A DNA stretch of 64,000 nt from IMG/VR virus record IMGVR_UViG_3300032288_002134, positions 1 to 64,000 of that record. One strand, given 5' to 3'. Origin of the DNA: a virus. A program made the translations under genes and the position numbers. The notes under the pieces are model-generated. The model saw only the letters and a list, made by a program, of their open reading frames with translations. It was not told the origin of the DNA and did not search any database. Each line of letters starts with the position of its first letter. Position 1 is the first letter of the stretch. Of the stretch, positions 3,278-62,588 are shown piece by piece.

Positions 3278-3499
3278 TTAAAATTTGAATGTGAATTTAA
3301 TATCTGATTTGTTACTATCTATCGAGTTTAAATAGTTTGATATATTTGTAAATTCATTATGATTTTTTACCCTCCAACTTTTTAAAAATGGGTAATTTTC
3401 ATGTATTTCAATATCCAATCCTATGCTTTCAATATATTTTGTAGCTTGATTGAAATTCATTTTTTGGGTTTCTTTTTTTATTTTTTCTGCTGTTATCAT
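3278..3499 (-). CDS. Hypothetical protein, 73 aa
   Basis: Not recognised. The N-terminus is mixed helix (KIKKETQKMNFNQATKYIES), and a short alpha/beta segment with FLKSWRVKNHNEF follows. The ATG at 3499 sits behind a leader nearly identical to that of the next upstream gene (3523-3747): TTTAAAACACACACCACACC. This supports its being a translated gene. Confidence 0.45.
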   Translation of the reverse strand: MITAEKIKKETQKMNFNQATKYIESIGLDIEIHENYPFLKSWRVKNHNEFTNISNYLNSIDSNKSDIKFTFKF

Positions 3500-3522
3500 G
3501 GTGTGGTGTGTGTTTTAAATTG

Positions 3523-3747
3523 TTAGCAATATTTAAAGTCTATTTTTGCATAGCACTTTGTGAGTGCTTCAAAATTCTTAATTTTATTTTCAAGTTCTAT
3601 TACTTCAGATTCATCAAGCTCATCTATATCCTCCCAATATCCGCTTATATCATAGCCTATCGCATCGTAAAAATGGGTAGTAAAATCGTATAAATTTTCT
3701 CTTGTTTGTTCGTACCTTTTTAATAGGCTGATAATTTTATTTCTCAT
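3523..3747 (-). CDS. Hypothetical protein, 74 aa
   Basis: Not recognised. It is predicted all-helical, basic at the N-terminus (RNKIISLLKRYEQTRENLYDF) and acidic in the middle (EDIDELDESEVIELENKI). The start carries the conserved ACACACACCACACC leader, which argues for real expression despite the small size. Confidence 0.45.
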   Translation of the reverse strand: MRNKIISLLKRYEQTRENLYDFTTHFYDAIGYDISGYWEDIDELDESEVIELENKIKNFEALTKCYAKIDFKYC

Positions 3748-3762
3748 GGTGTGGTGTGTGTT

Positions 3763-3984
3763 TTAAAGTGAATAATATTTTATAAATGCTTTAGCCGATA
3801 GTGTGTAAAACTCAGCGTACAAATCTGAGTTTTTTAAATTATCTTTAACCTGCTTGATATACATTTTTTTAGTCTCATTATCGCCCATCTCATAAAGTAG
3901 AATACTTTGTTCAAAGATTTTTTTTGCCTTTATAATTGTTACATCACAATTACAATTCTTTTCAATCCATTTTAAAGGTTTCAT
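3763..3984 (-). CDS. Hypothetical helical protein, 73 aa
   Basis: Not recognised. Predicted all-helical, with a Cys pair near the N-terminus (EKNCNCDV) and a Lys-rich middle. The AACATAACACC leader precedes the ATG. Confidence 0.4.
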   Translation of the reverse strand: MKPLKWIEKNCNCDVTIIKAKKIFEQSILLYEMGDNETKKMYIKQVKDNLKNSDLYAEFYTLSAKAFIKYYSL

Positions 3985-4003
3985 GGTGTTATGTTTTAAA
4001 TGT

Positions 4004-4368: not shown

Positions 4369-5100
4369 TTAATAGTCAGTTATAACAAAACCTGATTTGT
4401 CTTTTCGTGCGCTACCTTTAGCCTTTAAGCCTAAAATGACTCCTTTTGGGCAATCAAGCATCAAATCGTCGCGTGAATCCCCGTCTAATACTGTAAAACC
4501 TTTGTATGTTTTCGGTAGTTCCTTTGCGAAAACCATTGCGACGATGCCACCATTTTTTAGTATATCAATACACTGCTCTTCGTTATCCTCAGAACGTGAA
4601 AACGTCACAACATATCTGTGCAAAGTTTCTGTTATACGTTCACCTTGCTTTTGCCAAATTTTTGTGTAATCATAAAAGACTACATTTGGCGCAATGTCAT
4701 ACATTGAGCAAAGTTGCTCAACTAACTTAATGTCAGACGTTCCATTGAGTCTTACGGCCAATTCGCCTTTTGTTTTTTTAGCTTTTTTGTTTATTTCTGT
4801 GGCAATTTGTTCTAAAAACTTGAACCTATCTTTTAAGTAGAGTTCAGTTCTGTTAATTCTTGCACTTTGAACGTTTAAGTATACGCCACGTCCTGCGGTA
4901 TAAAGGCAAGCTTTTAAACAGCCTTCCGACGCCATAGGGCATAAATTAATACCTTTGCTGTTTTGCTTTGCGGGAGATAAGTACAAAATTAACGTTTCAC
5001 GTTCATTTTTAGCCGTTTTTGTGTTAGTTACACCGTCAGATAATAATTTTTTAACTGATTTGATTTCAGTTTTTGTCAATTCTAAAGTATTGCAATTCAT
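4369..5100 (-). CDS. gp88-family phage protein with conserved Cys triad
   Basis: 243 residues. It contains YLSPAKQNSKGINLCPMASEGCLKACLYTAGRG, with cysteines at about 54, 61 and 65, followed by VQSARINRTELYL. The CPMAS-x-GC-x-x-xC-x-x-x-GRG arrangement is that of the family named after mycobacteriophage gene product 88, found in many unrelated phages. The Cys spacing and the predicted alternating strand/helix order allow a metal or Fe-S site, but no biochemical role is established. It is the largest gene of the leftward 0-5 kb block and lies next to the noncoding control region, so it is probably transcribed first from there. Confidence 0.7.
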   Translation of the reverse strand: MNCNTLELTKTEIKSVKKLLSDGVTNTKTAKNERETLILYLSPAKQNSKGINLCPMASEGCLKACLYTAGRGVYLNVQSARINRTELYLKDRFKFLEQIATEINKKAKKTKGELAVRLNGTSDIKLVEQLCSMYDIAPNVVFYDYTKIWQKQGERITETLHRYVVTFSRSEDNEEQCIDILKNGGIVAMVFAKELPKTYKGFTVLDGDSRDDLMLDCPKGVILGLKAKGSARKDKSGFVITDY

Positions 5101-5392
5101 AATAATAAAAGTTTAAATAATTAAAAAAAATTGTTAGCGCGCTTTTCAGATTCGAACCAAAAAAAGTATTAAAATACTTTGCAGCCATGCAGCGCAAAAA
5201 TTGTTTTTTACCGTCATTTTTATATCTGATTTTCAAAATTCCCCTCAGATACATATCAAAACCTATCATTTTTTGATATCGCAAATATTAACTCGGGTTA
5301 ATATTACGTTTGTGCTTTTCACTAAAAGTTGAATGCCACAAAAAGAATAATACTAAAAAAGTATTTTTACGGTAACCGATTGTCAAAAAACT

Positions 5393-5443
5393 AAAGCAAT
5401 TAAACAAAGATGATGTAAAACTACATTATAAATTAATTGCTTT
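5393..5443. repeat. Two-tier inverted repeat (cruciform or structured RNA)
   Basis: Outer arms AAAGCAATTAA (5393-5403) and TTAATTGCTTT (5433-5443) are perfect 11-bp complements. Inside them ATGTA (5413-5417) and TACAT (5422-5426) form a second short stem. No T-run follows, so it is unlikely to be a simple terminator. Confidence 0.55.
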
Positions 5444-5783
5444 GCGAGTCTTATTTTTATGCTCTATTGAATCGCGTATATTGCCTTTTGCAATCGTATC
5501 TGTTGCGATTCTGATGTAAACATAAAACGACTTTTTTTATTATTCAAACTTTTAGCAAAATATTTTTTAAAATTGATAAAAATAAATTTCCACCAAATAA
5601 AAAAATATGTCCAAGATTGGCTGTTTATCGTGCTTTCAGCCGGAATGCCGATGAATACAGCGTTTGAAACCAAAAGATAGTAATAATCGGGCTTTCAGCG
5701 ATTGAAAAAAATTTTAAAAAAAAATTAAAATTGATAATAAAATGATTCAGTAATTAGGATTGTGAAGGCAAAAAAGAGAGGGT

Positions 5784-5913
5784 AACTATTCTGTCGAAAA
5801 TAGTTTTTTGGTAAAAAAATGCGTCTCCCAGTGCGCAAAAAAATGCAAAAAGTAAACTATAATTGAGAAAATAGTTTAGCGAAAAGTAAACTATAATTGA
5901 TAAAATAGTTTAC
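5784..5913. repeat. Three AACTAT...ATAGTT inverted repeats
   Basis: Copies lie at 5784-5805 (loop contains CTGTCGAAAA), 5853-5878 (TAAACTAT/ATAGTTTA) and 5886-5913 (GTAAACTAT/ATAGTTTAC). The last two differ by one base in a 10-nt loop (AATTGAGAAA and AATTGATAAA) and start 33 nt apart, so they form a tandem direct repeat of palindromes. Likely protein-binding operators or an origin component. Confidence 0.6.
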
Positions 5914-5930
5914 AAACAGAGCGATTAAGC

Positions 5931-6133
5931 ATATACGAAGTGTGCGAAGTGTGTGCGATTTGTGTAATGTATGCAATGCGATTAATTTATTATATATATG
6001 TTATAAGTTTAGTAACAGCGGAGAGCGAGAGCTACGAAGGTAACGACGTATACGAAGATGGTAGGTAGTAGTGATAAGGGACGTGAGCGTATACGAATGT
6101 AGTATATATATGTGCAGGTCATAGCATATACGA
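5931..6133. repeat. Four-copy RTATACGA iteron-like repeat
   Basis: The octamer RTATACGA occurs at 5931, 6048, 6089 and 6126. The two middle copies are extended to the palindrome CGTATACG. The last three are spaced 41 and 37 nt apart. I did not notice this word in the neighbouring coding sequence, but I did not count it across the window. Confidence 0.45.
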
Positions 6134-6309
6134 TGGCTACAGAAAAAGGCAAAAAATCGTAGATGGCAGGTCGAATGGCACACCCCCCTGCCTCAAAAAA
6201 AATCGGTTTTCGATTTTCGCTATAGCTCGTAAACTCGCTATAGTACCCAAACATTATTATTATCTGAATAAAATTTGTAACTTTACCGAAACCTTTTAAA
6301 ATTTATCAT

Positions 6310-6564: not shown

Positions 6565-6621
6565 TGTCGATTTTTTTATGTACAGGGTGGCTGAAAAGTC
6601 ACCTTTTTTGTGTACACGACA
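6565..6621 (+). terminator. Rho-independent terminator inside a larger nested hairpin
   Basis: The core stem GGTGGCT (6586-6592) - GAAA - AGTCACC (6597-6603) is followed by six T. Two further nested arms surround it: TGTAC/GTACA (6579-6583 and 6612-6616) and TGTCG/CGACA (6565-6569 and 6617-6621). It ends the 6310-6558 gene. Confidence 0.75.
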
Positions 6622-6897
6622 TTTTTTTGTAGAGATTTCGTAGACTCTTTTATTACTTTATATTATATTATTCTTTATTTATGTCAATAATTGACATTAA
6701 AATGTCAATAAAATGTCAATAAGAATATAGTAAATACTATAGAATGTCGAAAATGTCGAAAAAAAAAACAGTTACAGATTTGGTGTTATGTTAAAGAATA
6801 TAAAAATATATAGAGAGTATATAGGAATTGAAAATCGGTATTCGGGATAAAACCCAAGATTACCGGTTTTATAAAAGTAGAAATTCCTATTGGTATG
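6622..6897. promoter_or_regulatory. Noncoding module A: phased ATGTC motifs, TGTCGAAAA pair and 26-mer
   Basis: ATGTCAAT occurs at 6681, 6702 and 6713 (the last two 11 nt apart), with an inverted copy (TTGACAT) at 6691-6697. TGTCGAAAA follows in tandem at 6745-6753 and 6754-6762. After 39 nt comes the 26-mer AAAAATATATAGAGAGTATA-TAGGAA (6802-6827). The same elements with the same 39-nt gap recur at 57238-57384. No gene is visible in the stretch. It sits just upstream of the groEL promoter. Replication initiation or co-regulation is inferred. Confidence 0.6.
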
Positions 6898-6928
6898 TTT
6901 GGTGGTTTAAAAAGAATTATTATCTTTG
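6898..6928 (+). promoter_or_regulatory. Bacteroidota-type promoter of the groEL operon
   Basis: TTTG at 6898-6901 and TATCTTTG (consensus TAnnTTTG) at 6921-6928 are separated by 19 nt, the canonical spacing for the primary sigma factor of Bacteroidota. The groEL ATG lies 48 nt downstream behind an AATTCAATTCAATTTAATT leader. Confidence 0.75.
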
Positions 6929-6975: not shown

Positions 6976-8610
6976 ATGTTTGACAACACAGGTTACACTC
7001 CGAAGGATTTGTTGTTCGGAGACGATGCTAGAGCCAAGCTCATTAGTGGCATAAACAAGATTGCCAATGCGGTGAAGAGTACATTAGGTCCTGGAGGGAA
7101 TACGGTACTGATAGAGTCACCTCATCACACACATGGTATTACAGTTACGAAGGATGGTGTCACAGTTGCGAGAGCTGTGGACTTGTTTGATCCGGTGGAG
7201 AACCTTGCGGTAAGGATGATGAAGGAGGCAGCGGACAGGACTGCTACCAATGCAGGTGATGGTACTACGACAGCGATAGTGTTGACAGAGGCACTGGTGC
7301 TTGAGGGTATAAAGAGGCTTACGCCAGAGGTGAACAGGACAGAGGTGCTGAGGCACATGGGTGACATAACAGGGAGTATAGTAGAGCAGCTTCGTAAGAG
7401 GGCTAAGAAAGTGACGAACTCGTTATTGTTGGATGTGGCTACCATATCGGCTAATAATGACAAGGAGATAGGTCGGATAATATCCGAGGTGTATAAAGAG
7501 ATAGGGAGAACCGGTATCGTTACCGTTGAGAAATCACAGACCTATGAGACCTATGCAGAGACAACGAAAGGGATAAAGTTCGACAGAGGGTACACATCCA
7601 ATCTGTTTATCAACGACCATAAGAAAGACGAGTGCGTATTTGAGGATGTGATGGTGTTGGTTGCCGACATTGAGATAAGTAACATCCTGCAAGTAGAGAA
7701 CATACTAAAACCAATCATAACCGAGGGCAAAAAATTGCTCATCATTTCCCCCTGTAGCACTAACGTGGTGAATACACTGGCTGCCAATGTAGTGAAAGGC
7801 AATGTAAAGGTTTGTGCTGTTGCCCCACCAAACTTCGGGTACAAACAACATGAGCTGATGCAAGACATTGCTGTCAGTGTAGGTGCTACATACTTCAGCG
7901 AGAAGACCGGTGATGATCTGTCAATTATGAACTATGGAGACCTGGGTCATGCTGCCAAGGTCATCGTGTCCAAAGACAGCACTGTGATCCTTAAATCGGA
8001 GTTCAAGTCAAAGCCTGAGATGATTGACGAGAGAGTGAAGCAGTTATGGTCTGCTCACGCTGCTGCAAAGCGCAAGGCAGACAAAGACTTCATCCTTGAG
8101 CGTATCGCTTCGCTTACCGGTGGTATTGGTGTCATCTTCGTGGGTGGTAATACTGACCTGGAGCAGAAAGAGCTTTATGACAGAGTGGATGATGCGGTAT
8201 GTGCTGTGAGGTCTGCATTAGAGGAGGGTATCCTTCCAGGAGCAGGCAAGGCATTGTACGAGGTGAACGTGTTTGGTATCATGGGGGATAATCCAAGCCA
8301 TGAGAGAAAGGTGGCTGCGCATATCATCCATCATGCACTGTCAAGACCACTATGCCAGATCCTTGAGAACGTAGGGTTGAGAATAGAGCAGATATATGTT
8401 GACAACTGCGATGAGGGCTATGGGTATAATGTCAAGACAGAAGACTTTGGAGACCTTATCAAAATGGGGGTCGTTGACCCATTGAAGGTGACAAGGAGCG
8501 CACTCCAAAATGCTGTTAGCGTAGCGACAACAATTCTTAGCACTAATGCCATCGTCACAATGGCAAGAAGCTTTGAGATTGCTAACGTATCTAAAAACCC
8601 AATGCAATGA
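6976..8610 (+). CDS. groEL: Chaperonin GroEL (phage-encoded Cpn60)
   Basis: 544 residues, the usual Cpn60 length, collinear throughout. LGPGGNTVLI, TKDGVTVA and the ATP-binding GDGTTT (94-99) lie in the first equatorial and intermediate segments. DRGYTSNLFIN starts the apical domain. TGGIGVIFVGG and RVDDAVCAVRSALEEGILPGAG mark the return to the intermediate/equatorial domains and keep the catalytic Asp (E. coli D398 equivalent). The C-terminal GGM repeat found in most bacterial GroELs is missing; the protein ends FEIANVSKNPMQ. GroES follows five genes on in the same direction. It presumably folds phage proteins, with the phage GroES or the tandem GroES-like protein at 18718 as lid. Confidence 0.95.
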   Translation: MFDNTGYTPKDLLFGDDARAKLISGINKIANAVKSTLGPGGNTVLIESPHHTHGITVTKDGVTVARAVDLFDPVENLAVRMMKEAADRTATNAGDGTTTAIVLTEALVLEGIKRLTPEVNRTEVLRHMGDITGSIVEQLRKRAKKVTNSLLLDVATISANNDKEIGRIISEVYKEIGRTGIVTVEKSQTYETYAETTKGIKFDRGYTSNLFINDHKKDECVFEDVMVLVADIEISNILQVENILKPIITEGKKLLIISPCSTNVVNTLAANVVKGNVKVCAVAPPNFGYKQHELMQDIAVSVGATYFSEKTGDDLSIMNYGDLGHAAKVIVSKDSTVILKSEFKSKPEMIDERVKQLWSAHAAAKRKADKDFILERIASLTGGIGVIFVGGNTDLEQKELYDRVDDAVCAVRSALEEGILPGAGKALYEVNVFGIMGDNPSHERKVAAHIIHHALSRPLCQILENVGLRIEQIYVDNCDEGYGYNVKTEDFGDLIKMGVVDPLKVTRSALQNAVSVATTILSTNAIVTMARSFEIANVSKNPMQ

Positions 8611-8970: not shown

Positions 8971-9177
8971 ATGGTAAACCATCCGGACCATTATGGAGGA
9001 AAAGATAACCAATACGAAGCAATAAAAGTAATAGAGGCTTGGAATCTTGACTTCCACCTTGGGAATGCCGTAAAGTATATCTCAAGAGCAGGTAAAAAAG
9101 AGTCTATGATACAAGACCTAGAGAAAGCAAAATGGTATCTTGAAAGAAAAATACAAATCTTAAAAACAAAATTCTAA
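8971..9177 (+). CDS. DUF3310 protein (SaV-like)
   Basis: About 68 residues reading VNHPDHYGG ... YEAIKVIEAWNLDFHLGNAVKYISRAGKK ... DLEKAKWYLERKI. This is the complete DUF3310 motif set (NHPxHY, LGNAxKYIxRAGKK, DLxKAxWYL). The family is common in phages next to nucleotide-metabolism genes, and its activity is undefined. I place the start at 8971 because it directly follows the upstream stop and has an A-rich leader. Starts at 8953 and 8908 are possible but extend into the MazG-like gene. The stop overlaps the next ATG. Confidence 0.8.
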   Translation: MVNHPDHYGGKDNQYEAIKVIEAWNLDFHLGNAVKYISRAGKKESMIQDLEKAKWYLERKIQILKTKF

Positions 9178-10022
9178 TGAAACATTCTCTCCACTCTTCG
9201 TTCTATCCACATATTGATGGGCGTAAGTTTACAGCAGTAGTAAAAAAGCTAAGACAGTTCTTTGATGAGAGAGGCTTTCTTGAGGTACATACTCAGAACA
9301 GACTTAGCATCCTATCTGCCTGTGAAGACCCATTTAACATCAGAACATTCTACTATAATCGAAACACCTATCCGCTTCCGCAGACTGGGCAGATGTGGCT
9401 TGAGCATGAGCTACTGAATAATCCAAAAGAGAAAGGGTTCTATTGTCTTTCGACAAGTTACAGAGATGAAGCCAATCCGATAGAGGGAAGACACTGCCTC
9501 ATCTTCCCAATGTTTGAGTTTGAGTTCCCAGGTAGTATGTCAAACCTCCACTTGATGGAGACAGAATTGTTAGAGTTTCTCGGTTTCAAAGACCATCAGA
9601 TTGCCAACTATGAAGATCTGTGCAAAGAATACAATGTCGAAATCATAGACTCAGAGGTAGAAGGCAAGATAGGAAATGAGAAGTCAAACGTATTCTCAAT
9701 CTTGAACTTTCCGGAAAGAACCAATCCATTCTGGAATATGGCAAGAGCCAATAACGGCAAAGCTAAAAAAATTGATGTCATCCTGTACGGACAAGAGACC
9801 ATTGGAAGCGCAGAGCGTTCTTGCGATAAGGAAGAGATGAGAAAGATATTCTTTGAGATTGAAGGAGGCAGATATGCCGATAAGCTATTCAGTCTTTTTG
9901 GATATGACAGAGTAATGACTGAGCTAAACGAGTTTCTATCAAATGACTTCTTCCAAAGAGTAGGTGGTGGTATTGGTATCACCAGACTTATCAGGGCAAT
10001 GGAGTTAAATAATATCTTATAG
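9177..10022 (+). CDS. Class II aminoacyl-tRNA synthetase/asparagine synthetase-like catalytic core
   Basis: 281 residues. It has class II motif 2 (STSYRDEANPIEGRH followed by FPMFEFEF; R96, E98) and motif 3 (GGGIGITRLIR, about 263-273). DVILYGQETIGSAERS corresponds to the block that in aspartyl/asparaginyl enzymes precedes motif 3. The N-terminal OB-fold anticodon-binding domain is absent; the protein begins directly with the catalytic fold. It therefore resembles the free-standing cores (archaeal asparagine synthetase-related, PoxA/EpmA-type) that adenylate an amino acid but need not charge tRNA. The substrate cannot be read from the sequence. It is embedded in the groEL-groES operon. Confidence 0.75.
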   Translation: MKHSLHSSFYPHIDGRKFTAVVKKLRQFFDERGFLEVHTQNRLSILSACEDPFNIRTFYYNRNTYPLPQTGQMWLEHELLNNPKEKGFYCLSTSYRDEANPIEGRHCLIFPMFEFEFPGSMSNLHLMETELLEFLGFKDHQIANYEDLCKEYNVEIIDSEVEGKIGNEKSNVFSILNFPERTNPFWNMARANNGKAKKIDVILYGQETIGSAERSCDKEEMRKIFFEIEGGRYADKLFSLFGYDRVMTELNEFLSNDFFQRVGGGIGITRLIRAMELNNIL

Positions 10023-29588: not shown

Positions 29589-32500
29589 ATGGCAAATTTT
29601 ACCAGGAATTTTGTTTTAGGCAAAATGAATAAGACATTCGATGAGCGTGTAGTTCCTGAAGGGGAATACATAGATGCCATGAATGTTCGTATGGGTTCTA
29701 CCGAAAAGTCAGAGGTTGGTGTTATCGAAAACACGAAAGGCAACTTGCCATTGACTACGTTGACGTACACTGATGGAACTCCATTAAGCACAGAAGCAAG
29801 ATGTATAGGAGCAATTGATGATAGTGCGAGAGAGACAATCTATTGGTTTGTGCATGATCCCAATTTTTCTAAATCAAATACCGGTAAGTTAGATTTGGTA
29901 GTGTCTTATAACATTTCTACTTTGATATTGACCTATCACATTGTCAGTGTTGACGATGGTGGTGGTGTTAATACTACGTTGAATTTCAATCCACAATACT
30001 TAATAACAGGTGTTGATTTGATTGAGAATCTTATTTTTTGGACCGATGACTATAACCAACCGAGATTTATAAATATTAACCGTAACTATGACAACCCTGA
30101 TGGAGCAGGCATTGACTATAATGGTCAGCCTGCTATATTAGCGGAATCTATTTTGGTTATTAAGAAGCCACCGGTAACATCTCCATCAATAACGCTATTA
30201 AATACTATAGGTCAAGAGAATTATTTAAGCGATAGGTTTATATGCTTTGCTTATAGGTATAAGTATGCCGATGGTGAATACAGTGCTACGTCACAATGGT
30301 CAGAGCCGGCATTTGTACCACAGTCATTTAACTTCAGTTCAAATAATTATTTGAACGAAGGAATGACAAATGAATATAATGCAGTAGATATTTTTTATAA
30401 CTCTGGAGGTCCTTTGGTTGTTGGTATAGATTTATTATTTAAACAAGCGACAAATAATATAATTAAGGTAATTGAGAAGATTGATAAAGTGGTTGCAGGA
30501 CTTTCCGACAATACTACTTATTCGTATTTTTTTAATAATAGTAAAATTTTTACTATTCTTTCTGAGTCAGAGTTGCTGAGGTTATACGATAATGTACCAA
30601 GGCTTGCGAAGGCTCAGACTGTTATGGGCAACAGGTTGATGTATGGCAACTATGTTGATGGATATGACGTACCTACAAGAATGGATTATTATACACAGTT
30701 AGTTTCAGAAAATATAAATATTACAGAAGTGCCAACTTCTTTAGATTCAGTGACATATAATATAGATACAACTCATATTGTATTAAATGCTGCATTGAAT
30801 ATATTTTTAGCAGGAATTAATTTTAATTCAGGATCTTCTATTGAATTAAATATAACAATAATTCATGATTCTTTTACGGGAACTCCTATAACACATACAG
30901 AGCAAACTCCTGCTACAAATATACAATTTTCAATATATCTTCAAAATAATTATACATCTGTTTATGATTTTGCAACAAGTGTTGAATTTCAAGAAGCTAT
31001 AGGAACTTCGTTGCCAGGTGGTAATATACAAGTTGTTTACAATCCAACACCTGGAGGAGATAATTCATGCGATGGAAACACGTTAACAGATAGATTTAAC
31101 TGTTTTTTACCTTTAACATTAGATGCTTTTATAAAATATGAAAGCGGAATAAATGCTCCAGGGCAAGCTATTTTAATTACAACATCTCCATCTTCTGATA
31201 TTATAACATTATCTATTTTGGCAATGAGATATGTTGATAATCCATCAAGTATAACTCAATCTTTTTATGAATATTATAGAATAACAAATTATAATGTTTA
31301 TTATTCAACTTTAGGTGTTCCAAAAAGTCTTCATAGTAATAGAGGTTATGAGATTGGTATCATTTATATGGATGAGTTTAATAGAGCTACTACAACTTTT
31401 TGTAGTCCTAATAACACTGTATTTGTACCATGTGAATATTCTAAATATGCAAATTCAGTTACAGTAAATATACCTCCTACACAAGTTGCTCCACCTTGGG
31501 CTAAGAGATATAAGTTTGTATGTAAGGCTGACATGGCAGGATATGAAACAATATATTCATATATTTATTATAAAAATAATAGTTCTTTTTGGTTTTTATT
31601 ATTAGGAGAAAGTGCAAGAAAGGTAGAAGTTGGAGATAGGCTTATAGTAAAAGCAGATTCTTCAGGACCTACAAATCAGTGTATTTATGTTACGGTATTA
31701 GAGAAAGAAGCAAAGCAAGCAAACACTATACCTTCATTAAATAGTAATCCTGAAGGAGTGTATATGAAAATAATTTCAACTGAATTAAATGTCTCTTTAC
31801 CTACAGTTACAAGATATTCAAATGATGAAATTAAATCAGTCTCACAAGGTGTTCCAGAATTAGAATTATTAGTAAATATACCTGGTACAAATCCATTACA
31901 ACCAACATGGACATATATTGATTTTGCAAATGGAATACCAAGAGGTAGTAAAGTATCATTTGGTTTATATTCAAGAATACCTGGAGATTTATTTTGCAAT
32001 CAAAGAAATTTCCCACTTAATGCACAATATTCAAGCTTTATAAAAGATTTTACATCTAATGCTGATTACGATAGTTTTTATGATTGGTTTGTTTCAAGTA
32101 ATATTGAATATTATATTGGAGGTAATTTTTTACCAGGATTAGGACCAATACCAAATCCACCTTTTCCTGGTTATAATCCAGAATACGATGTAGTTTATAG
32201 ATTTGATAGAAATGTAATTACAAACAAGTTAGTATTAAGATTTAAAGGATTAAAGGCGTGTAATGCTTGGTTTCCAAATGAATATACATCTTCCTTAAAT
32301 AAAATGTATTATAGTGTAACATATCCATTAAATATTAATCCTTTTATCTTTGAAACGATGCCATTGGATACATTACCTGATGTGTTCTATGAAAACAATC
32401 TATCTTTCCCTATTGATGTAGATGGTAATCACTTGTCTAATGGTGCTGCCGGAGACCAATCACAGGACATAGCATTGGGCATACCTGCTATCATACAGAC

Positions 32501-34244
32501 AGACTTCTTCAACTGCTTTGCTTTCGGTAACGGTGCAGAGAGCTACAAGATAAGAGACTCCATAATAGGCAGAGACTTTAACTTAGGAAACAGAATAACA
32601 ACAGTAGCAGCGCAAGACTATAAAGAGTCAAGGCGCATAGCTGACATTACATATAGTGGTGTGTACAACCCTGAGACCAATGTAAACAAACTCAATGAGT
32701 TTAACTCAGGTCTTTTGAACTACAAGAACCTTGAACTGTCATTCGGTGCTATCCAAAAGATGGATGGAAGGGAGACTGATGTATTAGTTCTTCAAGAGGA
32801 CAAGATATCTTATGTGTTAGCCGGTAAGAACCTATTGTCTGATGCTGCTGCCGGTGGTGCTATCACCTCTGTTCCGGAGGTTTTAGGTACACAGATAGCA
32901 AGGACAGAGAAGTATGGTATTAGTTTCAATCCGGAAAGCTATGTTCAATGGGGTTACGATAGATTCTTTACGGATGCCAAGCGTGGTGCTGTACTACAGC
33001 TAAGAGGTAACTCATACAACAGCGATCAGCTTGCTGCAATCTCTGACATGAACATGAGGACATGGTTTAGAGATGAGTTTAATAACTCTTTCAACACTCA
33101 GAAGTTGGGCGGTTATGACCCTTACATGAATGAGTATGTGTTGACTATAAATGACATAGACCTTCCGTTTGAGGTAGAGTGTATCAAGTGTGGTACTACT
33201 CAGACCTTTACTTTTGCTCAAGGCGAAAAGGGTAAAACTATATATAACTATTGCATTGACACAGGAGTATATATAGGTAATGTTACAATTGATTGGTTTT
33301 TAACGTCTATAGATCCTACGTCAAACTTTGTCATAGATGCTACTTATAATGGTATAACTTATTCTAGTGGAGTTCAAAACTCTGCCGGTCAGCTTACATT
33401 CTTAAAGTATCTTACTGAAGGATTAGTGGATATTCAATTGACAGTAACAGGTAATGCGGTAATAAACATCACAGTTGCTTGTCCGGTAAAAGAGCCTTTG
33501 AATTTAGTTCAGGTAGTGTTGACAAACAACTACGAAGCAGGCACAGGTCTTGTTACTCAGTTCTATTATACCAATCCACCATACATCTCACCTACCGGAT
33601 ACAACTTCTTCACTTTCTTGAGTGGTCCAAGTAATCCATTGGTATCATTGTATAGCATCACGTCTGGATTTGTGGGAACAGGAATAATGCCTCCTGAAGG
33701 AGCAACTATGACATTGCAGACAAACATAAATTTCCCTTGGGCTTCTTTTGTATTCGACACTGCTACAGATAGGTTTAAGTATCACAGATCAACAACTTTG
33801 TATAATAACAATAGTGTTGACATGAATGCTTTACTTGCCGTAGCTTCTACTGCGATGCCAATAAGCAATCCTAGTAGTGGCATATATAATGCCCCATTCA
33901 CTGTACCTCCTTCAGTAAATGGAGACTATCTTTATCTGATATGGGATTTGAGGTCATCTACTGAGGTTCAGCTTTGTCAAAGTGATTCGCTTGAGGATGT
34001 GTGCTGTAATTGTATTCCATGTACAGAGACTTGCTCTTATTATGTATTTACCAATCCTGAGACAGCGACAGAGAATGCTATTATAGAGTTTCCATTAGGT
34101 ACTTGCTTTGAGCCTGTATTATTCACTCAGACATTAGAACCTGGTAACTCAATAGGATTTTGCTTATTAAATGATGATAATAATTATGTTATAATACAAG
34201 GCAATCCAATCGTTTATATGGACAATTGCTATTGTGGTTTTTAA
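29589..34244 (+). CDS. Tail hub/stabilisation-type protein, 1551 aa
   Basis: Opens FTRNFVLGKMNKTFDERVVPEGEYIDAMNVRMGSTE, an N-terminal block (K-x-D-ER-x-(V/L)-x-xGEYxDAxNV) I associate with podovirus tail stabilisation proteins of crAss-like phages. The rest is long, strand-rich, beta-propeller-like sequence. The C-terminal 80 residues carry Cys clusters (DVCCNCIPCTETC, CYCGF). The part encoded by about 30.7-32.4 kb is visibly more AT-rich than the flanks, suggesting an exchanged module. It would sit at the tail tip or hub. Confidence 0.65.
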   Translation: MANFTRNFVLGKMNKTFDERVVPEGEYIDAMNVRMGSTEKSEVGVIENTKGNLPLTTLTYTDGTPLSTEARCIGAIDDSARETIYWFVHDPNFSKSNTGKLDLVVSYNISTLILTYHIVSVDDGGGVNTTLNFNPQYLITGVDLIENLIFWTDDYNQPRFININRNYDNPDGAGIDYNGQPAILAESILVIKKPPVTSPSITLLNTIGQENYLSDRFICFAYRYKYADGEYSATSQWSEPAFVPQSFNFSSNNYLNEGMTNEYNAVDIFYNSGGPLVVGIDLLFKQATNNIIKVIEKIDKVVAGLSDNTTYSYFFNNSKIFTILSESELLRLYDNVPRLAKAQTVMGNRLMYGNYVDGYDVPTRMDYYTQLVSENINITEVPTSLDSVTYNIDTTHIVLNAALNIFLAGINFNSGSSIELNITIIHDSFTGTPITHTEQTPATNIQFSIYLQNNYTSVYDFATSVEFQEAIGTSLPGGNIQVVYNPTPGGDNSCDGNTLTDRFNCFLPLTLDAFIKYESGINAPGQAILITTSPSSDIITLSILAMRYVDNPSSITQSFYEYYRITNYNVYYSTLGVPKSLHSNRGYEIGIIYMDEFNRATTTFCSPNNTVFVPCEYSKYANSVTVNIPPTQVAPPWAKRYKFVCKADMAGYETIYSYIYYKNNSSFWFLLLGESARKVEVGDRLIVKADSSGPTNQCIYVTVLEKEAKQANTIPSLNSNPEGVYMKIISTELNVSLPTVTRYSNDEIKSVSQGVPELELLVNIPGTNPLQPTWTYIDFANGIPRGSKVSFGLYSRIPGDLFCNQRNFPLNAQYSSFIKDFTSNADYDSFYDWFVSSNIEYYIGGNFLPGLGPIPNPPFPGYNPEYDVVYRFDRNVITNKLVLRFKGLKACNAWFPNEYTSSLNKMYYSVTYPLNINPFIFETMPLDTLPDVFYENNLSFPIDVDGNHLSNGAAGDQSQDIALGIPAIIQTDFFNCFAFGNGAESYKIRDSIIGRDFNLGNRITTVAAQDYKESRRIADITYSGVYNPETNVNKLNEFNSGLLNYKNLELSFGAIQKMDGRETDVLVLQEDKISYVLAGKNLLSDAAAGGAITSVPEVLGTQIARTEKYGISFNPESYVQWGYDRFFTDAKRGAVLQLRGNSYNSDQLAAISDMNMRTWFRDEFNNSFNTQKLGGYDPYMNEYVLTINDIDLPFEVECIKCGTTQTFTFAQGEKGKTIYNYCIDTGVYIGNVTIDWFLTSIDPTSNFVIDATYNGITYSSGVQNSAGQLTFLKYLTEGLVDIQLTVTGNAVINITVACPVKEPLNLVQVVLTNNYEAGTGLVTQFYYTNPPYISPTGYNFFTFLSGPSNPLVSLYSITSGFVGTGIMPPEGATMTLQTNINFPWASFVFDTATDRFKYHRSTTLYNNNSVDMNALLAVASTAMPISNPSSGIYNAPFTVPPSVNGDYLYLIWDLRSSTEVQLCQSDSLEDVCCNCIPCTETCSYYVFTNPETATENAIIEFPLGTCFEPVLFTQTLEPGNSIGFCLLNDDNNYVIIQGNPIVYMDNCYCGF

Positions 34245-35212: not shown

Positions 35213-36037
35213 ATGGCAGTAATAGAAAATTTTTATACATTAACTTATAGTCAGGCTGTTACCGGTTGGGTATCATTCTATTCCTTCAATCCGGATTGGA
35301 TGATAGGGATGAATCAATATTTCTATACCTTCAAAGGTGGCAATCTATACAGACATAGCGTTAATACGTTCAGAAATACATTTTATCAGCCTTGGTGGAC
35401 TTTAATGGGAGATAAGGCAGGTTCATTTACTCCTACGTCATTGACGAGTGTGTTCAATAATATACCACTTGAGAATAAGTTGTTCAAGACTTTAAACCTT
35501 GAGGGTGACTCTGTATGGGATGCCACACTTACAACGGACATACAGTCATCAGGATTTATTGACAGCAAATGGTTTGAGAAGAAAGAGCAGTCGTACTTTG
35601 CCTTTGTAAGAAATGACAAGACCGGTGAGTTGTCTATACGAAGCACGAATGGTATCGGTAAGAGCTATCAAGTGAATGTAGCAGGTGATACCATAGACTT
35701 CTCTATCAATCCATTGGTTGACATTGGGTCTATTATAAGCATAGGTGACTACTTGTATTTCTCATTGCCTCCTTATACTGCTATACAGTTAGCAGGTAGC
35801 GTATTGCAGATAAACAGAAACTATCCGGCAGGTATAAACCAATTAGTGATAGACATCACTATTCCTGGTGCTATTCCTATTCCGGTACAAGATGCTTATT
35901 ATCTGTACACTAAGAACTCTGTGGCAGAGTCACATGGTGTATTGGGTCACTACTGTGTGTTCAAGATTGACAATTTCTCAAAAGATAAAATAGAATTATT
36001 TGCAGTTGAGTCAGAAGTTATGAAAAGTTATCCATAA
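35213..36037 (+). CDS. Structural protein of the tail region, 274 aa
   Basis: Opens AVIENFYTLTYSQAVTGWVSFYSFNPDWMIGMNQYFYTFKGGNLYRH. The SF-x-PD-W-x-x-x-NxxFYTFKxGxLYRH block resembles proteins found downstream of tail hubs in crAss-like relatives. Beta-rich throughout. No enzymatic motif. Confidence 0.55.
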   Translation: MAVIENFYTLTYSQAVTGWVSFYSFNPDWMIGMNQYFYTFKGGNLYRHSVNTFRNTFYQPWWTLMGDKAGSFTPTSLTSVFNNIPLENKLFKTLNLEGDSVWDATLTTDIQSSGFIDSKWFEKKEQSYFAFVRNDKTGELSIRSTNGIGKSYQVNVAGDTIDFSINPLVDIGSIISIGDYLYFSLPPYTAIQLAGSVLQINRNYPAGINQLVIDITIPGAIPIPVQDAYYLYTKNSVAESHGVLGHYCVFKIDNFSKDKIELFAVESEVMKSYP

Positions 36038-51719: not shown

Positions 51720-51764
51720 TTGAATTTGATTTTATTTAATTAAAAAATATATGCGCCACGTTAT

Positions 51765-51785
51765 GAGGCTTAGCGATTAGTTAGC
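51765..51785. repeat. GAGGYTTAGCGATTAGTTAGC repeat, copy 1
   Basis: This 21-mer, with one pyrimidine change, also occurs at 59441-59461. Each copy lies just past the 3' end of a leftward gene (51793-52464 and 59472-59696). The base pairs beyond it (cgccacgttat here, cgccataacgt there) are inverted complements of one another. Confidence 0.65.
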
Positions 51786-54843: not shown

Positions 54844-57219
54844 TTATTCTTTAAAGATTATCCATCTACCCATTTGATCTCTACCTTCTTCCGGAATTAA
54901 ATCTTTAAATGTAGCATAGGAGATAAGCCATTTATAAAATTTTGTTCTACTTATTGTCATCTTTGCTTTTGGTCCATAGTCCGGATGTTCCTCCACAAAG
55001 TTATAATATAAATCATTTTTATACAGCCTTTCATCTGTTTTCAATAAATAATTTTTCTCAGTCTTATCCACAAGACCACACCACTCTATGAACTCATGGC
55101 AGGTCTCTGCTGATAACTTACGGACATTCAGGTTGATTAGCTTGGCTTTTACTAAGCCGGTGTCAAGATAGTTCCTAAGACAGTTTATCATGTAGTTGTC
55201 AAACTCACACCAGTCTATGTCATCCCAATCCCCGAACATAAGCTTGCCGAACTCATCCAATGGAGTGAAACTCTTGGAGTAGTATTGGTGTAACTCAAGC
55301 TCCCACTTACGTCTCTCAAAGGAATTGCCTGCTCCTTTTATGGCATAGTTGGTAGTGATGGCTATCTTAGGTGACTTACTCAATGGTATCTTTATGGCAT
55401 CCTTGTTCTTCTTCTCAAGGGTCAGACCCTCAGTGATGAGAGAGAATAGTCGCTCAAACTCAAAGTGCTTCTTCACGTCATCGAATACCAATATCTGAGT
55501 GTCTGCCGATACAAGCTGATAGGCAAATGATTTCTCAAAGTTGAACAGCTTACCATCTATGGTTACTACCTTTTTCATTTTACCTAAAGCATTGATGATG
55601 AGACCTTTGCCAGTGCCACCTTCAGGATTATCGGAGATGACCTCATCGTTAAGTATGACTGCCGGACAGAACGAAAGGTTCTTGAAGCCATGCATCAGGA
55701 ATCCTATTGTGCTTTCCATTGATGCAATCCTGTTGGAGTCATTCCGGTTAATGTTGTAGATAAACTTTTTAAAGTCGCATTGATCGGAGATGTTACATAG
55801 GGAGAAGTTACGGTCAATGACATGGTCTTTCCATACATAGCCACCAAGGTCAAGGTAATCTATTGGTCTTATCTCCTCCTTTGTAATCTTGACAGCGCAG
55901 TTCTTGTAGTACAAGTATGAACTTGTCTTGGTATCTTCAATGAAGTATATTTCTATTGTGGCGAGCAGAGATAAGAACTCCTCCTTGAAGAATCTGGTGT
56001 TGTCGGCAAAGTAATTATAGACACTGACATCGTCAATCTCAAGTAGGTAGTTTAGGACAAAGTCTTTTATCTCCTTCTCAGAGGTGTGGTCTATCAGGTT
56101 ATTTGTTACCTTTATGAAGATATGGTTCTTGCTACCTTCCGGAAAGTATTTGTAGAAGCCTGAGTCCTCCAAGAAGTTCTTGAAGAGGATATGTTCTATC
56201 CTTGTTGAGCCTTTGTCGTTCTTAGACCAAAAGGTAAAGATAGAGTTCTCTTGTTCTACTTTGTTAAGCACTGCATCTATGACATCAACTTCAAGGCTTG
56301 ACTCTTGTAGCTGATATCTAAGTTCGTTTTTTGTTGCTCCCCTCCGAAGTTTTGCTCTTATGTTATTTATCTTCTCTTCGTCTTCGTAGTACTTTGTTCC
56401 AAAGTTAGCTACGTTCTTATAGGCAGAGTCTACCAATTGTGCTATCTCTCTATGGTCAAAGCCATCGGTAGCATATTGGTTTAGTACATACAAGGCAAGG
56501 CTTTTGTTTATACCAAAGTCATTCATAGCCATCGCCAGTACATATCCATTGTGGTTTCGCTGACCTTCAATCATAGGGTACTTCTTATACCACCACTTGA
56601 CAAGGATGTCCACTATCTTGTTCTCATCTGTTATCGGGATGGTTGGCTTGTCTCTGTACTTGTTCACCTCTGTGTATTCAATCTCTTCTATGATATCCCA
56701 TACGGAGGACTTGTCATTCACATGAATCAATGGGTCGTATGACTCGTAGCATACACGAGACACGTTCTTGGATGTCTTGTCAAAGTATTCTGAGTTGAAA
56801 TACTTCTCTAATGAGTTGAAGTAGTTGACGTGGTTGTCCGGATCTGCCGGTATCTTTACCAATACCTTCAGCCCATTGCCGGAAGGCGATATGAATACCG
56901 AAAAGACATACTTGTTTTTGGATAGTATCTCCTTGTCGTTTAGTAAGTCCTTCTGTTTATTGTACCCATCGAAGTCAAGACAGATAAGACCAGAATGCTC
57001 AAGAAGGGAATTGTCTAATCTCTTTTTAAATGTTCCGGAGAAGCATATCGCAGGTAGCAATTTTTTTATCTCATTGCGCTCATTTTTATTCTTCTCACTG
57101 CGTATTCTTTTGACGATTTCTTTAGATGCCCCATCTCGGATTCGCACTAATATCGCATTTACGTCTCTGTAGAAAGGAGTATCAGTGTCCTTAATATTTT
57201 TAAATATAGTTACATTCAT
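54844..57219 (-). CDS. Primase-helicase (BT4734-type primase, PriCT-like, SF3-like helicase)
   Basis: 791 residues. Residues 1-165: BT4734-like/archaeo-eukaryotic primase-type domain (SGLICLDFDGY and FSVFISPSGNGLKVLVKIPAD contain the catalytic acidic and basic residues). About 190-270: PriCT-like helical region (EGQRNHNGYVLAMAMNDFGI). About 500-670: P-loop helicase with Walker A GGTGKG (534-539), Walker B QILVFDDVKK and sensor 1 ITTN. It starts the phage replisome by priming and unwinding. Its upstream region carries module B and a separate terminator, so it has its own promoter. Confidence 0.85.
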   Translation of the reverse strand: MNVTIFKNIKDTDTPFYRDVNAILVRIRDGASKEIVKRIRSEKNKNERNEIKKLLPAICFSGTFKKRLDNSLLEHSGLICLDFDGYNKQKDLLNDKEILSKNKYVFSVFISPSGNGLKVLVKIPADPDNHVNYFNSLEKYFNSEYFDKTSKNVSRVCYESYDPLIHVNDKSSVWDIIEEIEYTEVNKYRDKPTIPITDENKIVDILVKWWYKKYPMIEGQRNHNGYVLAMAMNDFGINKSLALYVLNQYATDGFDHREIAQLVDSAYKNVANFGTKYYEDEEKINNIRAKLRRGATKNELRYQLQESSLEVDVIDAVLNKVEQENSIFTFWSKNDKGSTRIEHILFKNFLEDSGFYKYFPEGSKNHIFIKVTNNLIDHTSEKEIKDFVLNYLLEIDDVSVYNYFADNTRFFKEEFLSLLATIEIYFIEDTKTSSYLYYKNCAVKITKEEIRPIDYLDLGGYVWKDHVIDRNFSLCNISDQCDFKKFIYNINRNDSNRIASMESTIGFLMHGFKNLSFCPAVILNDEVISDNPEGGTGKGLIINALGKMKKVVTIDGKLFNFEKSFAYQLVSADTQILVFDDVKKHFEFERLFSLITEGLTLEKKNKDAIKIPLSKSPKIAITTNYAIKGAGNSFERRKWELELHQYYSKSFTPLDEFGKLMFGDWDDIDWCEFDNYMINCLRNYLDTGLVKAKLINLNVRKLSAETCHEFIEWCGLVDKTEKNYLLKTDERLYKNDLYYNFVEEHPDYGPKAKMTISRTKFYKWLISYATFKDLIPEEGRDQMGRWIIFKE

Positions 57220-57406
57220 GTCGTTTTATTATTTTTTATGTCGAAAAAATGTCAGTTTAATGTCAATATATTTATTATAACTTATTGATTTTCTTTTCTT
57301 ATGTCGAAAATGTCGAAAATAGAAATGAAATGAAATTCATAGAATTTTATAAATAGTAAAAAATATATAGAGAGTATATAGGAAAAAAATTCGGTTTTTC
57401 GGTTGG
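57220..57406. promoter_or_regulatory. Noncoding module B: phased ATGTC motifs, TGTCGAAAA pair and 26-mer
   Basis: ATGTC occurs at 57238, 57249 and 57260, exactly 11 nt apart. TGTCGAAAA lies at 57239-57247 and in tandem at 57302-57310 and 57311-57319. After 39 nt comes the 26-mer at 57359-57384, identical to 6802-6827. Elements and gap match module A in the same orientation, though the gene here is transcribed in the opposite direction. No TAnnTTTG box is seen on the minus strand. Confidence 0.6.
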
Positions 57407-57434
57407 GTAAAAAAGGGGAAGCCTAAACTTCCCC
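57407..57434 (-). terminator. Terminator of the SSB-like gene
   Basis: On the minus strand GGGGAAG (57434-57428) pairs with CTTCCCC (57421-57415) over a 6-nt loop, and a run of six T follows. It separates the SSB-like/ThyX unit from the primase unit. Confidence 0.75.
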
Positions 57435-57466
57435 CTAACACACATGAGACACACACACAATAATTT

Positions 57467-57769
57467 TTAAAATGGCAAATCTTCATCAGGTTCTTCTGAC
57501 TTTGTCTTTTTGGAAGACTGTGCCTTATTTGTTATTTGTTTGGCTTCTGTGACACTTTCACCACCTTTCGGGGTGTATGTATCCAACTCTAAATAAAAGT
57601 TGCCTGTACGGGCTTTTTTTACGTTCAAGTTTATCCAGCCATTTTTTTCATGTTGTTTCATAAACCTGATGGCATCATCAAGTTTGACTGAGAGTCTTCC
57701 GACTACGAACTCTGGAGCATTTTCGTTTCTCTTAAATGAGAATCCATCGGCAAATAATTTTTCTTCCAT
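57467..57769 (-). CDS. Single-stranded DNA-binding-type protein
   Basis: 100 residues. The body is strand-rich and basic (NGWINLNVKKARTGNFYLELDTYTPKG), then a disordered linker, ending SEEPDEDLPF. An acidic tail closing with D-x-(L/I/P)-PF is the hallmark of SSB proteins, used to recruit partner enzymes. The OB fold itself is not obvious at this length. Location between ThyX and primase fits. Leader TTTAATCAA-ATG. Confidence 0.65.
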   Translation of the reverse strand: MEEKLFADGFSFKRNENAPEFVVGRLSVKLDDAIRFMKQHEKNGWINLNVKKARTGNFYLELDTYTPKGGESVTEAKQITNKAQSSKKTKSEEPDEDLPF

Positions 57770-59198: not shown

Positions 59199-59210
59199 TC
59201 TGTGAAAAAT

Positions 59211-59293
59211 AGTCAGGACAGGATTCGAACCTGCATCCCCATACTATTGGGTAAACGGATTTGCACCGTATGTTAACTTTACACTACCTGACT
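59211..59293 (-). tRNA. tRNA-like gene with shortened anticodon arm (Cys GCA or Leu CAA reading)
   Basis: 83 nt. The acceptor stem AGTCAGG/CCTGACT is a perfect 7 bp, the T arm GCAGG-TTCGAAT-CCTGT is canonical, the D stem is GTGT/ACAT with a loop lacking the usual GG, and the variable arm is a CCCA/TGGG hairpin. The anticodon stem is only ACGG/CCGT around TGCAAAT. Canonical counting gives anticodon CAA with a non-U at position 33. Restoring two missing bases (A and T) would give the standard Cys loop TTGCAAA. No CCA is encoded. Confidence 0.5.
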
Positions 59294-59418: not shown

Positions 59419-59440
59419 TAAAAAATATCCGCCATAACGT

Positions 59441-59461
59441 GAGGTTTAGCGATTAGTTAGC
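59441..59461. repeat. GAGGYTTAGCGATTAGTTAGC repeat, copy 2
   Basis: See 51765-51785. Here the repeat sits between the tRNA-like remnant and the 3' end of the gene at 59472. Additional palindromic words of the same flavour (CCGCTAACAAGCGG at 59557-59570 inside the gene, CGCCAACCGCCC near 59730 upstream of it) surround this gene only. Confidence 0.6.
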
Positions 59462-61225: not shown

Positions 61226-61957
61226 CTATAATCTTTCAAAGATGAAATAATTAGCAATGTCATCTTTAGGACTCTCCCCAAAGTACTTTCGGTACATCTC
61301 AATGGCTTTGCCTACCTTACGCTCACCCGATTGGATGAACTCTACCGTAGGCTCAAAGATACCAAGTTGCGCAGTGACCTTGTCAATCACCAGGAACACC
61401 AGAGGCTTACCGAAAAGTTGTTGGTAGACGTAGCATTGGCTGTCGTAGTTATAATTTCGTGCAGACCATTTGAATTTGTTGATGTCGCTTGTAGTTTTTA
61501 GGTCTATCAAACTATCATCGCAAACGATGTCCGCTTTGCCTTTCCACATCTCCCCTTGTATCTCTCCATATGCAGGCTGTTCAAATACATTCCCATCTCT
61601 GAAAATCATATCGTAAAAAGTGATGTTGGCTTTCATCACCCCGACTAACTTCTCTATATCCTCCATCTCTTTCTTTAGCAGGCAGAAGTCTATATTATTG
61701 ATCTCGCAGAAGGATTTGTATTCCTTGGTAGTTCTTGTGCTGACATCACAGTAAAGCATCTGAGATGCCTTCTCAGGCTCTAATATCAGCTGATGGAAGT
61801 ATCTCCCCTCGGCAAAGGATTTGTTGTCCTCTCTGACTTTGCCGAAGTCCTGTGGGTTATTCAGCAGGACTCCGACATCAGAGTTAGACAAAAACTTTTT
61901 ACCTATGCCAGAGTAATACTCAGCATCATTCTTTAAAAGTTCTATTGTCTTATCCAT
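61226..61957 (-). CDS. PD-(D/E)XK exonuclease (RecB/lambda-exo-like)
   Basis: 243 residues. GRYFHQLILEP (H55), WKGKADIVCDDSLIDLKTT (D143, D152-x-K154) and YDSQCYVYQQLF (Q174, Y-x-Q) give the full RecB-type nuclease motif order (H, D, D/E-x-K, QxxxY). Resects double-strand ends in phage recombination. It overlaps by 8 nt the annealing-protein gene, completing a classic exonuclease/annealase pair. Confidence 0.85.
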   Translation of the reverse strand: MDKTIELLKNDAEYYSGIGKKFLSNSDVGVLLNNPQDFGKVREDNKSFAEGRYFHQLILEPEKASQMLYCDVSTRTTKEYKSFCEINNIDFCLLKKEMEDIEKLVGVMKANITFYDMIFRDGNVFEQPAYGEIQGEMWKGKADIVCDDSLIDLKTTSDINKFKWSARNYNYDSQCYVYQQLFGKPLVFLVIDKVTAQLGIFEPTVEFIQSGERKVGKAIEMYRKYFGESPKDDIANYFIFERL

Positions 61958-62588
61958 TGCTTACGATTTTAGCGATTTCGCTTTTAATGTCAGCGGAAAT
62001 AGTGTACTTACGGCTTAGTTGCTGAAGGATTTTCTCTATGCCTAACGACTTATTGTCGGCAACATATTTAGATACCTTTGTCCAATTGTCAGAGCCTTTG
62101 ACTAACTCAGATACCTCATCAACAGAAGCAGTCTTCTTCTGTACCGGAGCAACCTCACCTTCCGGTAAGTCCTCACCAGAGTAGATGTAGATACCCAATC
62201 CGAACATTGCCAAGTTCTTCACCAAGCAGCGCATAATGGTCTTGTTGATATCGAACATAGTAGCAGCCTCAACGGTCTTGTTGCCGTACTTGGTGGCATA
62301 CTCATAGTCTTCAGACTTCATAGCTTTATTTGCCCCATCCATCACCGGCAGCCACATGGTATGCGACTTGTCTCCGATAGTCACCTTGGTGAATACCATA
62401 TACCCAGTGATTGGGTCATAGACATAAGGGTAGCCATGGAAGAACAACACCTCGTAGCTTGCATCGGGATAGTGTTTCATTACCTCTGACCAAGCATAAG
62501 TCCACGATAGGTAGGTAAGGTCTTTTTTCTTCTCAGTCTTGTCGTTGAGATTGATAGCCGAGAGTGTTTGGAATACATTGTGTGTCAT
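61950..62588 (-). CDS. Single-strand annealing protein (DUF1071/Sak3-like)
   Basis: 212 residues. LSWTYAWSEVMKHYPDASYEVLFF...TKVTIGDKSHTMWLPVMDGANKAMK...VEAATMFDINKTIMRCLVKNLAMFGLGIYIYSGEDLP is the full DUF1071 pattern, a Rad52-like annealing family. Residues 150-212 are a linker and small helical tail. Anneals complementary single strands made by the adjacent exonuclease. Leader AACACC-ATG. Confidence 0.85.
   Translation of the reverse strand: MTHNVFQTLSAINLNDKTEKKKDLTYLSWTYAWSEVMKHYPDASYEVLFFHGYPYVYDPITGYMVFTKVTIGDKSHTMWLPVMDGANKAMKSEDYEYATKYGNKTVEAATMFDINKTIMRCLVKNLAMFGLGIYIYSGEDLPEGEVAPVQKKTASVDEVSELVKGSDNWTKVSKYVADNKSLGIEKILQQLSRKYTISADIKSEIAKIVSNG

Follow-up and report, generated by a model that had tools for sequence, protein, structure and literature searches.

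Paired, co-oriented iteron-like modules beside the groEL and primase genes as putative replication origins of an uncultured phage

Results

Two modules of the same build in the phage sequence

The sequence under study, called the window throughout, is the whole 64,000-nucleotide stretch at positions 1 to 64,000 of IMG/VR virus record IMGVR_UViG_3300032288_002134. It carries two non-coding modules, module A ahead of the phage groEL gene and module B between the start of a primase-helicase gene and a small ORF which we call ssb-like from its position and length (Table 1). The first-pass annotation had described each module as a set of ATGTC boxes at 11-nt steps followed by a direct tandem, a gap of 39 nt and an identical 26-mer (AAAAATATATAGAGAGTATATAGGAA), and all of these parts were recovered, with the gap of 39 nt present in both A and B. 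In the phage's own modules TAGG stands 77 nt after the start of the tandem. For stability, the C-free stretch of module B ranks near the very bottom of all 40-nt windows in the sequence (rank fraction 0.0002). An IHF-like site is clear only in module B, no such match being present in module A of the window, and the right-hand inverted boxes seen in relatives (below) were not recognisable in the window's own modules.

Table 1. Positions of the module parts and of the neighbouring genes and signals in the window
Feature	Positions	Strand	Remark
Intrinsic-terminator-like hairpin and T-run	6585-6609	+	after ORF82, upstream of module A
Module A left boxes	6681-6719	+	ATGTCAA at 6681, 6702 and 6713; inverted TTGACAT at 6691
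Module A 9-nt tandem ATGTCGAAAATGTCGAAAA	6744-6762	+	motif present in 105/115 dereplicated relatives
Module A C-free A/T/G stretch	6776-6835	+	60 nt; presumed unwinding region
Module A 26-mer	6802-6827	+	identical to module B copy; ends TAGGAA
groEL promoter, TTTG-N19-TATCTTTG	6898-6928	+	Bacteroidota-type; separate from module
Phage groEL	6976-8610	+	neighbour gene of module A
Primase-helicase	54844-57219	-	BT4734-like N, Walker A GGTGKG, DUF5906; proposed initiator
Primase residues 716-791	54847-55074	-	winged-helix-like domain tracking box type; codon of residue 785 at 54865-54867
Module B left boxes	57238-57270	+	57238, 57249, 57260; 11-nt period; adjoin primase start
TAACTTATTGATT in module B	57278-57290	+	23 nt upstream of tandem; reverse complement matches IHF consensus
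Module B 9-nt tandem ATGTCGAAAATGTCGAAAA	57301-57319	+	
Module B C-free stretch	57339-57391	+	53 nt
Module B 26-mer	57359-57384	+	identical to module A copy
Intrinsic-terminator-like element	57409-57435	-	against leftward transcripts from ssb side; kept in 50/54 B modules
Small ssb-like ORF	57467-57769	-	beyond module B
Exonuclease and Sak-like ssDNA annealing protein	61226-62588	-	61226-61957 and 61950-62588; beside DnaA_C gene
Small DnaA domain-IV-like protein	62608-62922	-	conserved along with modules

A search of the whole 64,871-base record found TGTCGAAAATGTCGAAAA at 6745-6762 and 57302-57319 only, and the motif is thus not scattered through the genome. The shorter TGTCGAAAA occurs six times on the + strand (5792, 6745, 6754, 57239, 57302 and 57311), five times inside the modules, and has no copies on the - strand of the window. 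In 20 sequences simulated from the window with a Markov-1 model, the longest direct repeat without mismatches reached 15-19 nt, so the shared 26-mer is far beyond chance. The separation of 50 kb given in the first-pass annotation is correct along the linear record; on a circular genome, such as the one annotated for the relative MW202828, the short way from one module to the other would be approximately 14.3 kb.

Several other features of the window were recorded. The lone TGTCGAAAA at 5792 lies in an ORF-poor region of 1.2 kb (5100-6300) which also contains a pair of 34-nt units in tandem (5845-5912). The early region has a non-coding direct repeat of 42 nt (51744-51785 and 59420-59461, 81% identical, ending in GAGGYTTAGCGATTAGTTAGC) with its copies 7.7 kb apart, and an Rfam tRNA match of 42.7 bits was obtained at 59210-59293 (-), where ARAGORN made no call. 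Small leftward ORFs share a repeated leader at their start codons (3493-3522, 3741-3770 and 3979-3998, the reverse of ATCATGGTGTGGTGTGTGTTTTAAA), which might serve them as a common promoter or translation signal.

Conservation of the modules in related phages

Scanning IMG/VR with the 18-mer returned 47 contigs, most of which shared the layout; the module nearly always directly preceded a phage groEL and pointed the same way as that gene, and in three of the 47 it was beside the primase. Among 84,980 cellular genomes there were 64 matches to the 18-mer, none with the module layout, and cellular genomes were therefore rejected as carriers. Both modules were present at homologous places in the circular genome MW202828, whose primase is 75% identical. 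To keep the sample unbiased, 115 dereplicated regions upstream of groEL or the primase were retrieved by protein and not by motif, and the tandem (28 bits) was found in 105 of them compared with 2 of 575 shuffles. The layout is thus shared by a large group of uncultured viruses.

A loose tandem pattern gave two matches in 25 of 34 long records, one in the other nine and never more than two, while the reversed control pattern gave none in the same records; for six distant records a loose TGAC-type pattern was too unspecific for counting copies. The paired tandems were always on the same strand, one module preceding groEL and the other located between the ssb-like gene and the primase. The shared absolute orientation of the two copies, first remarked in the window where the adjoining genes run in opposite directions, is thus a property of the relatives too. 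On the coordinates of the 34 records, and with circularity assumed, the pairs are 8.7-15.9 kb apart by the short way.

The annotation had also held that fixed spacing matters. This was borne out by the distance from the tandem start to TAGG(G), of which the 39-nt gap forms part and which is 76-77 nt to TAGGG in 63 of 88 relatives. The 26-mer keeps its position and composition in relatives and not its sequence; matches to it elsewhere were mostly unrelated or coding, and it was discarded as a conserved core. A run of 44 nt with no C on the module strand was present in 79/105 modules versus 51/20,000 random segments. In the relatives ATGTCGATTTT boxes lie about 11 nt apart in module orientation, and reverse-oriented boxes follow beyond TAGGG in 59/70. 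Between boxes and tandem, TAACTTATTGATTATTAATACT (YAAN4YTGATW) was separated from the tandem by exactly 22/23 or 33 nt in 80/105 (0.8% when shuffled, 0 on the opposite strand), the two distances differing by one helical turn. The IHF consensus is WATCARNNNNTTR, and the reverse complement of TAACTTATTGATTATTAATACT matches it; since the conserved element of 22 nt is longer than this consensus, another binder is possible.

In eight relatives with primases 66-71% identical (L436, L438, L442, L443, L448, L471, L474 and L480) no module was visible before the primase, and these phages may have an origin at another place or of another type. No module-carrying isolate was found, isolated phages of Flavobacterium, Maribacter and Cellulophaga having been compared by their primases alone, which are only distantly related.

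Co-variation of the boxes with the primase-helicase

Among distant relatives the box sequence changes, and it does so jointly at the two sites, the forms being TGTCGATA, TGTTGAAA, TGACAAGA and TGYTCAAA, in a tandem of 8- or 9-nt units. Identity of the primase C-terminal domain was 83-96% in three close pairs of phages with the same box, 63-66% in two more distant same-box pairs and 34% in one; between box types the domain was 38-53% identical, and the rest of the protein mostly 60-95%. At matched divergence, among 67 dereplicated primases, segment 716-791 had the strongest link to box type (1/1000 permutations), followed by segment 181-255 (20/1000).

Within this segment residue 785 (Arg/Lys) co-changes with base 4 of the box (C/T) and ranks first of the 791 residues. 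On a tree of 89 sequences built without the C-terminal domain, five of the six changes at residue 785 fell on branches where base 4 flips, a result reached in 0/20,000 length-weighted random placements; one of the five coincident changes is at the root, which leaves four to five independent events. The tree set consisted of 64 C-Arg and 21 T-Lys combinations, a single gap and three exceptions. Another 28 primases, held out and less than 95% identical to any of those used, were scored with the same calling rule, and 23/27 followed the relation (C-Arg 13, C-Lys 1, T-non-Arg 10, T-Arg 3, with one evident miscall). The relation is broken in the TGAC 8-nt subgroup, where L408 and L566 carry Lys, and in some mixed-box phages. 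Box calls in these comparisons were automatic, and shared ancestry was handled by branch counting and not by a full model. An arginine opposite the guanine of a C:G pair is chemically sensible.

By Pfam, BT4734-like_N and PriCT_1 were found in 11/11 primases and DUF5906 in 7/11, while no Toprim domain was detected in the primase, BT4734-like_N being there instead. The AlphaFold model of the primase was poor (mean pLDDT 48), too weak for domain claims, and it is in this low-confidence model that an H-H-E-E order is seen at residues 734-790. When the weak C-terminal model (about 70-85 residues) was compared with known structures it gave Z 7.4 against RFX5 and Z 6.5 against the P4 origin-binding domain 1ka8 (73 residues, rmsd 2.9), scores below the trusted level which count merely as compatible. 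A PDB sequence search gave no match with a C-terminal-domain query that was approximate, having been typed from relatives. On the co-variation in sequence, the C-terminal domain of the primase-helicase is most likely the box reader.

Two iteron-type origins as the probable function

The first-pass annotation had favoured an origin, an iteron set or a chromosome-organising site over a plain promoter. An origin bound by an initiator is the reading supported by the co-oriented pairs, the fixed spacing, the restriction to viral genomes and the way in which the boxes co-vary with the C-terminal domain of the primase, and we consider it probable that modules A and B are two co-oriented iteron-type origins read by a P4-alpha-like primase-helicase. 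As in the sequence anatomy of iteron origins, direct repeats stand beside an A/T-rich stretch, and as in SPP1 two distant sites share the same initiator boxes. An inflection of GC skew had been put forward as a further sign, but the skew follows gene direction and gave no consistent origin signal, its sign at 4-fold sites differing among 8 genomes; it was rejected as an indicator of origin or fork direction.

From these computational results we infer replication from modules A and B, and further binding, unwinding, initiation and a division of labour between the copies, along the following lines. The phage would keep two iteron origins in the same orientation, separated by about 9-16 kb along the shorter arc. 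The winged-helix C-terminal domain of the primase-helicase would bind the 8- or 9-nt boxes, the tandem above all, and a bend at the IHF-like site, made by IHF/HU or another protein, would fold the left boxes onto the tandem. The C-free A/T-rich stretch would then melt at a fixed distance from the tandem, after which the helicase part would load and the primase part would prime. Module A lies where early and late genes diverge; module B, before the primase gene, may allow auto-regulation. By analogy with oriL and oriR of SPP1, theta replication may begin at one copy, while the other may serve as a second origin or may arrest forks when the phage switches to recombination-dependent synthesis of concatemers; the Sak-like protein and the exonuclease could take part in that synthesis.

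It is possible, although we would not count on it, that only module B beside the primase fires, and that the other copy is a non-initiating site, a fork barrier or a helper like P4 crr. P4 needs a second cis region, which offers a parallel. For oriR, the second of the SPP1 sites, a role in blocking forks is assumed (PMC3485210). However, A and B both have the full anatomy, equal spacing and an equal C-free stretch, and no feature that we found marks either as inactive. This alternative is a sub-case of the two-origin explanation, and the confidence we place in the one overlaps with that in the other.

Comparison with known replication systems

Bacillus phage SPP1 has two origins 12 kb apart and one initiator, with a theta start at one origin and a presumed fork block at the other ahead of recombination-dependent synthesis (PMC3485210). 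The resemblance to oriL/oriR and G38P lies in the two sites served by one initiator, and in replication genes that come together with genes for an exonuclease and an annealing protein; it is a likeness of organisation. Among the differences, the phage modules are co-oriented with a fixed inner spacing, and where SPP1 divides the work between an origin-binding protein, a helicase loader and a replicative helicase, the phage is proposed to have its boxes read by a domain of the primase-helicase itself.

In the alpha protein of satellite phage P4 a winged helix binds the origin repeats, after which the protein unwinds and primes (PMC4234260). The phage would share with P4 a multifunctional primase-helicase that reads an iteron origin, and its C-terminal domain gives the weak match to 1ka8, but alpha has a Toprim-type primase (PMC4234260) where the phage protein has an N-terminal BT4734-like domain with PriCT_1. 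As it has no Toprim domain, we class the phage primase as working like P4 alpha and not as a member of its family. Proteins of the pRN1 ORF904 / BIP-1 type combine a primase, an SF3-type helicase and a C-terminal winged helix in one chain, as the phage protein may do, but the origins proposed for them are large stem-loops that lack iterons (PMC4234260), in contrast to the iteron-like boxes of the phage modules.

Transcription signals at the modules

The groEL promoter lies downstream of module A, and TANNTTTG is present on the groEL side in 51/51 A modules, while within the A modules it occurs in 4 (+) and 1 (-) of 51. In the B modules TANNTTTG was not found on the - strand from the tandem to the primase (0/54), and a TTTG-N19-TANNTTTG promoter is not recognised inside the module. 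Downstream of groEL a class-II aminoacyl-tRNA-synthetase-like ORF (PF00152) is encoded at 9177-10022 (+) and is retained there in close relatives only, and a crAss-type muzzle protein and muzzle C-terminal domain are encoded as two ORFs at 29589-34244 and 35213-36037 (PF25731, PF25729). At the level of sequence, the type of the groEL promoter and the crAss-type muzzle proteins point to Bacteroidota hosts.

The modules could on this evidence be elements of transcription control, with the DnaA-domain-IV-like protein or the primase regulating groEL and the primase operon and with no role as origins. Each module is directly before a gene start and behind a terminator-like element, and the primase promoter is left unaccounted for by the lack of a Bacteroidota -7 motif from tandem to primase in the 54 B modules. 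However, the modules keep a single absolute orientation, which agrees with the direction of the neighbour gene at one of them and opposes it at the other, so a plain promoter does not fit; groEL has its own host-type promoter, and the boxes co-vary with the replicative primase-helicase and not with the small protein. We regard transcription control as unlikely to be the whole function.

The DnaA-domain-IV-like protein

The small protein at 62608-62922 had been suggested as the binder of the modules. Its fold agrees with this: all 40 relatives match PF08299 at E up to 0.01, although the window's own protein, at 22.8 bits, is below the gathering cut-off of 31.5, and the model (pLDDT 94.5, no AAA+ domain) superimposes on DNA-bound DnaA domain IV (1j1v) with Z 14.6 and rmsd 1.6 over 93 residues. 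Together with the observation that TGTCGATAA is one position off the reverse complement of TTATCCACA, these matches would allow the boxes to be diverged DnaA boxes of an oriC-like origin, bound by this protein or by host DnaA. Against this, the recognition-helix motif stays HSTIIHGYKKAK while the box shifts from TGTCGATA to TGTTGAAA to TGACAAGA, and DnaA_C sites show at most 2 co-changes with the box versus 5 for primase residue 785; as its sites do not co-vary with the boxes, the small protein is probably not the specificity reader and was rejected in that role. An 8-nt tandem in L334, L335, L338, L361, L365 and L328 accompanies a DnaA_C subfamily with HSTIIHGYKKAK-like motifs.

The basal unwinding system of bacterial oriC also has tandem 9-nt boxes by an A/T-rich stretch, and the phage box resembles a DnaA box, but the box orientation is opposite, there is no DnaA-trio periodicity, and the phage protein is without AAA+ (PMC8287927). 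A DnaA-trio arrangement was rejected on the box orientation and on the periodicity, in which lag-2 alternation dominates and lag 3 is below the shuffles. An oriC-like origin is accordingly very improbable. That the modules are packaging, partition or chromosome-organising sites is hardly credible in spite of the two co-oriented copies and their confinement to viral genomes, given the co-variation with the primase-helicase, the position beside replication genes and the lack of any recognisable partition gene in the set of proteins scanned.

Discussion

In the papers searched, no origin is described for this phage group, and no paper was found on crAss-like phages with iteron origins or on the 18-mer. 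If modules A and B are two initiator-bound origins, the finding bears on the suggestion that archaeo-eukaryotic-type primase-SF3-winged-helix proteins use stem-loop origins (PMC4234260). We tentatively propose, as a more specific scheme, that these tailed phages, as a whole group, have paired origins of equal build which are obligatorily co-oriented, can function only together and are served by a self-contained BT4734-type primase-helicase as initiator, that wing residue 785 sets base 4 of every box, and that joint change of residue and boxes would give rise to mutually incompatible replicons. The reason why both copies keep the same orientation is a question which the modules raise. Co-evolution of initiator and origin could be tested here with a small domain and short oligonucleotides. 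The modules would pinpoint two origins in each of many uncultured genomes, with a candidate reader protein and residue named.
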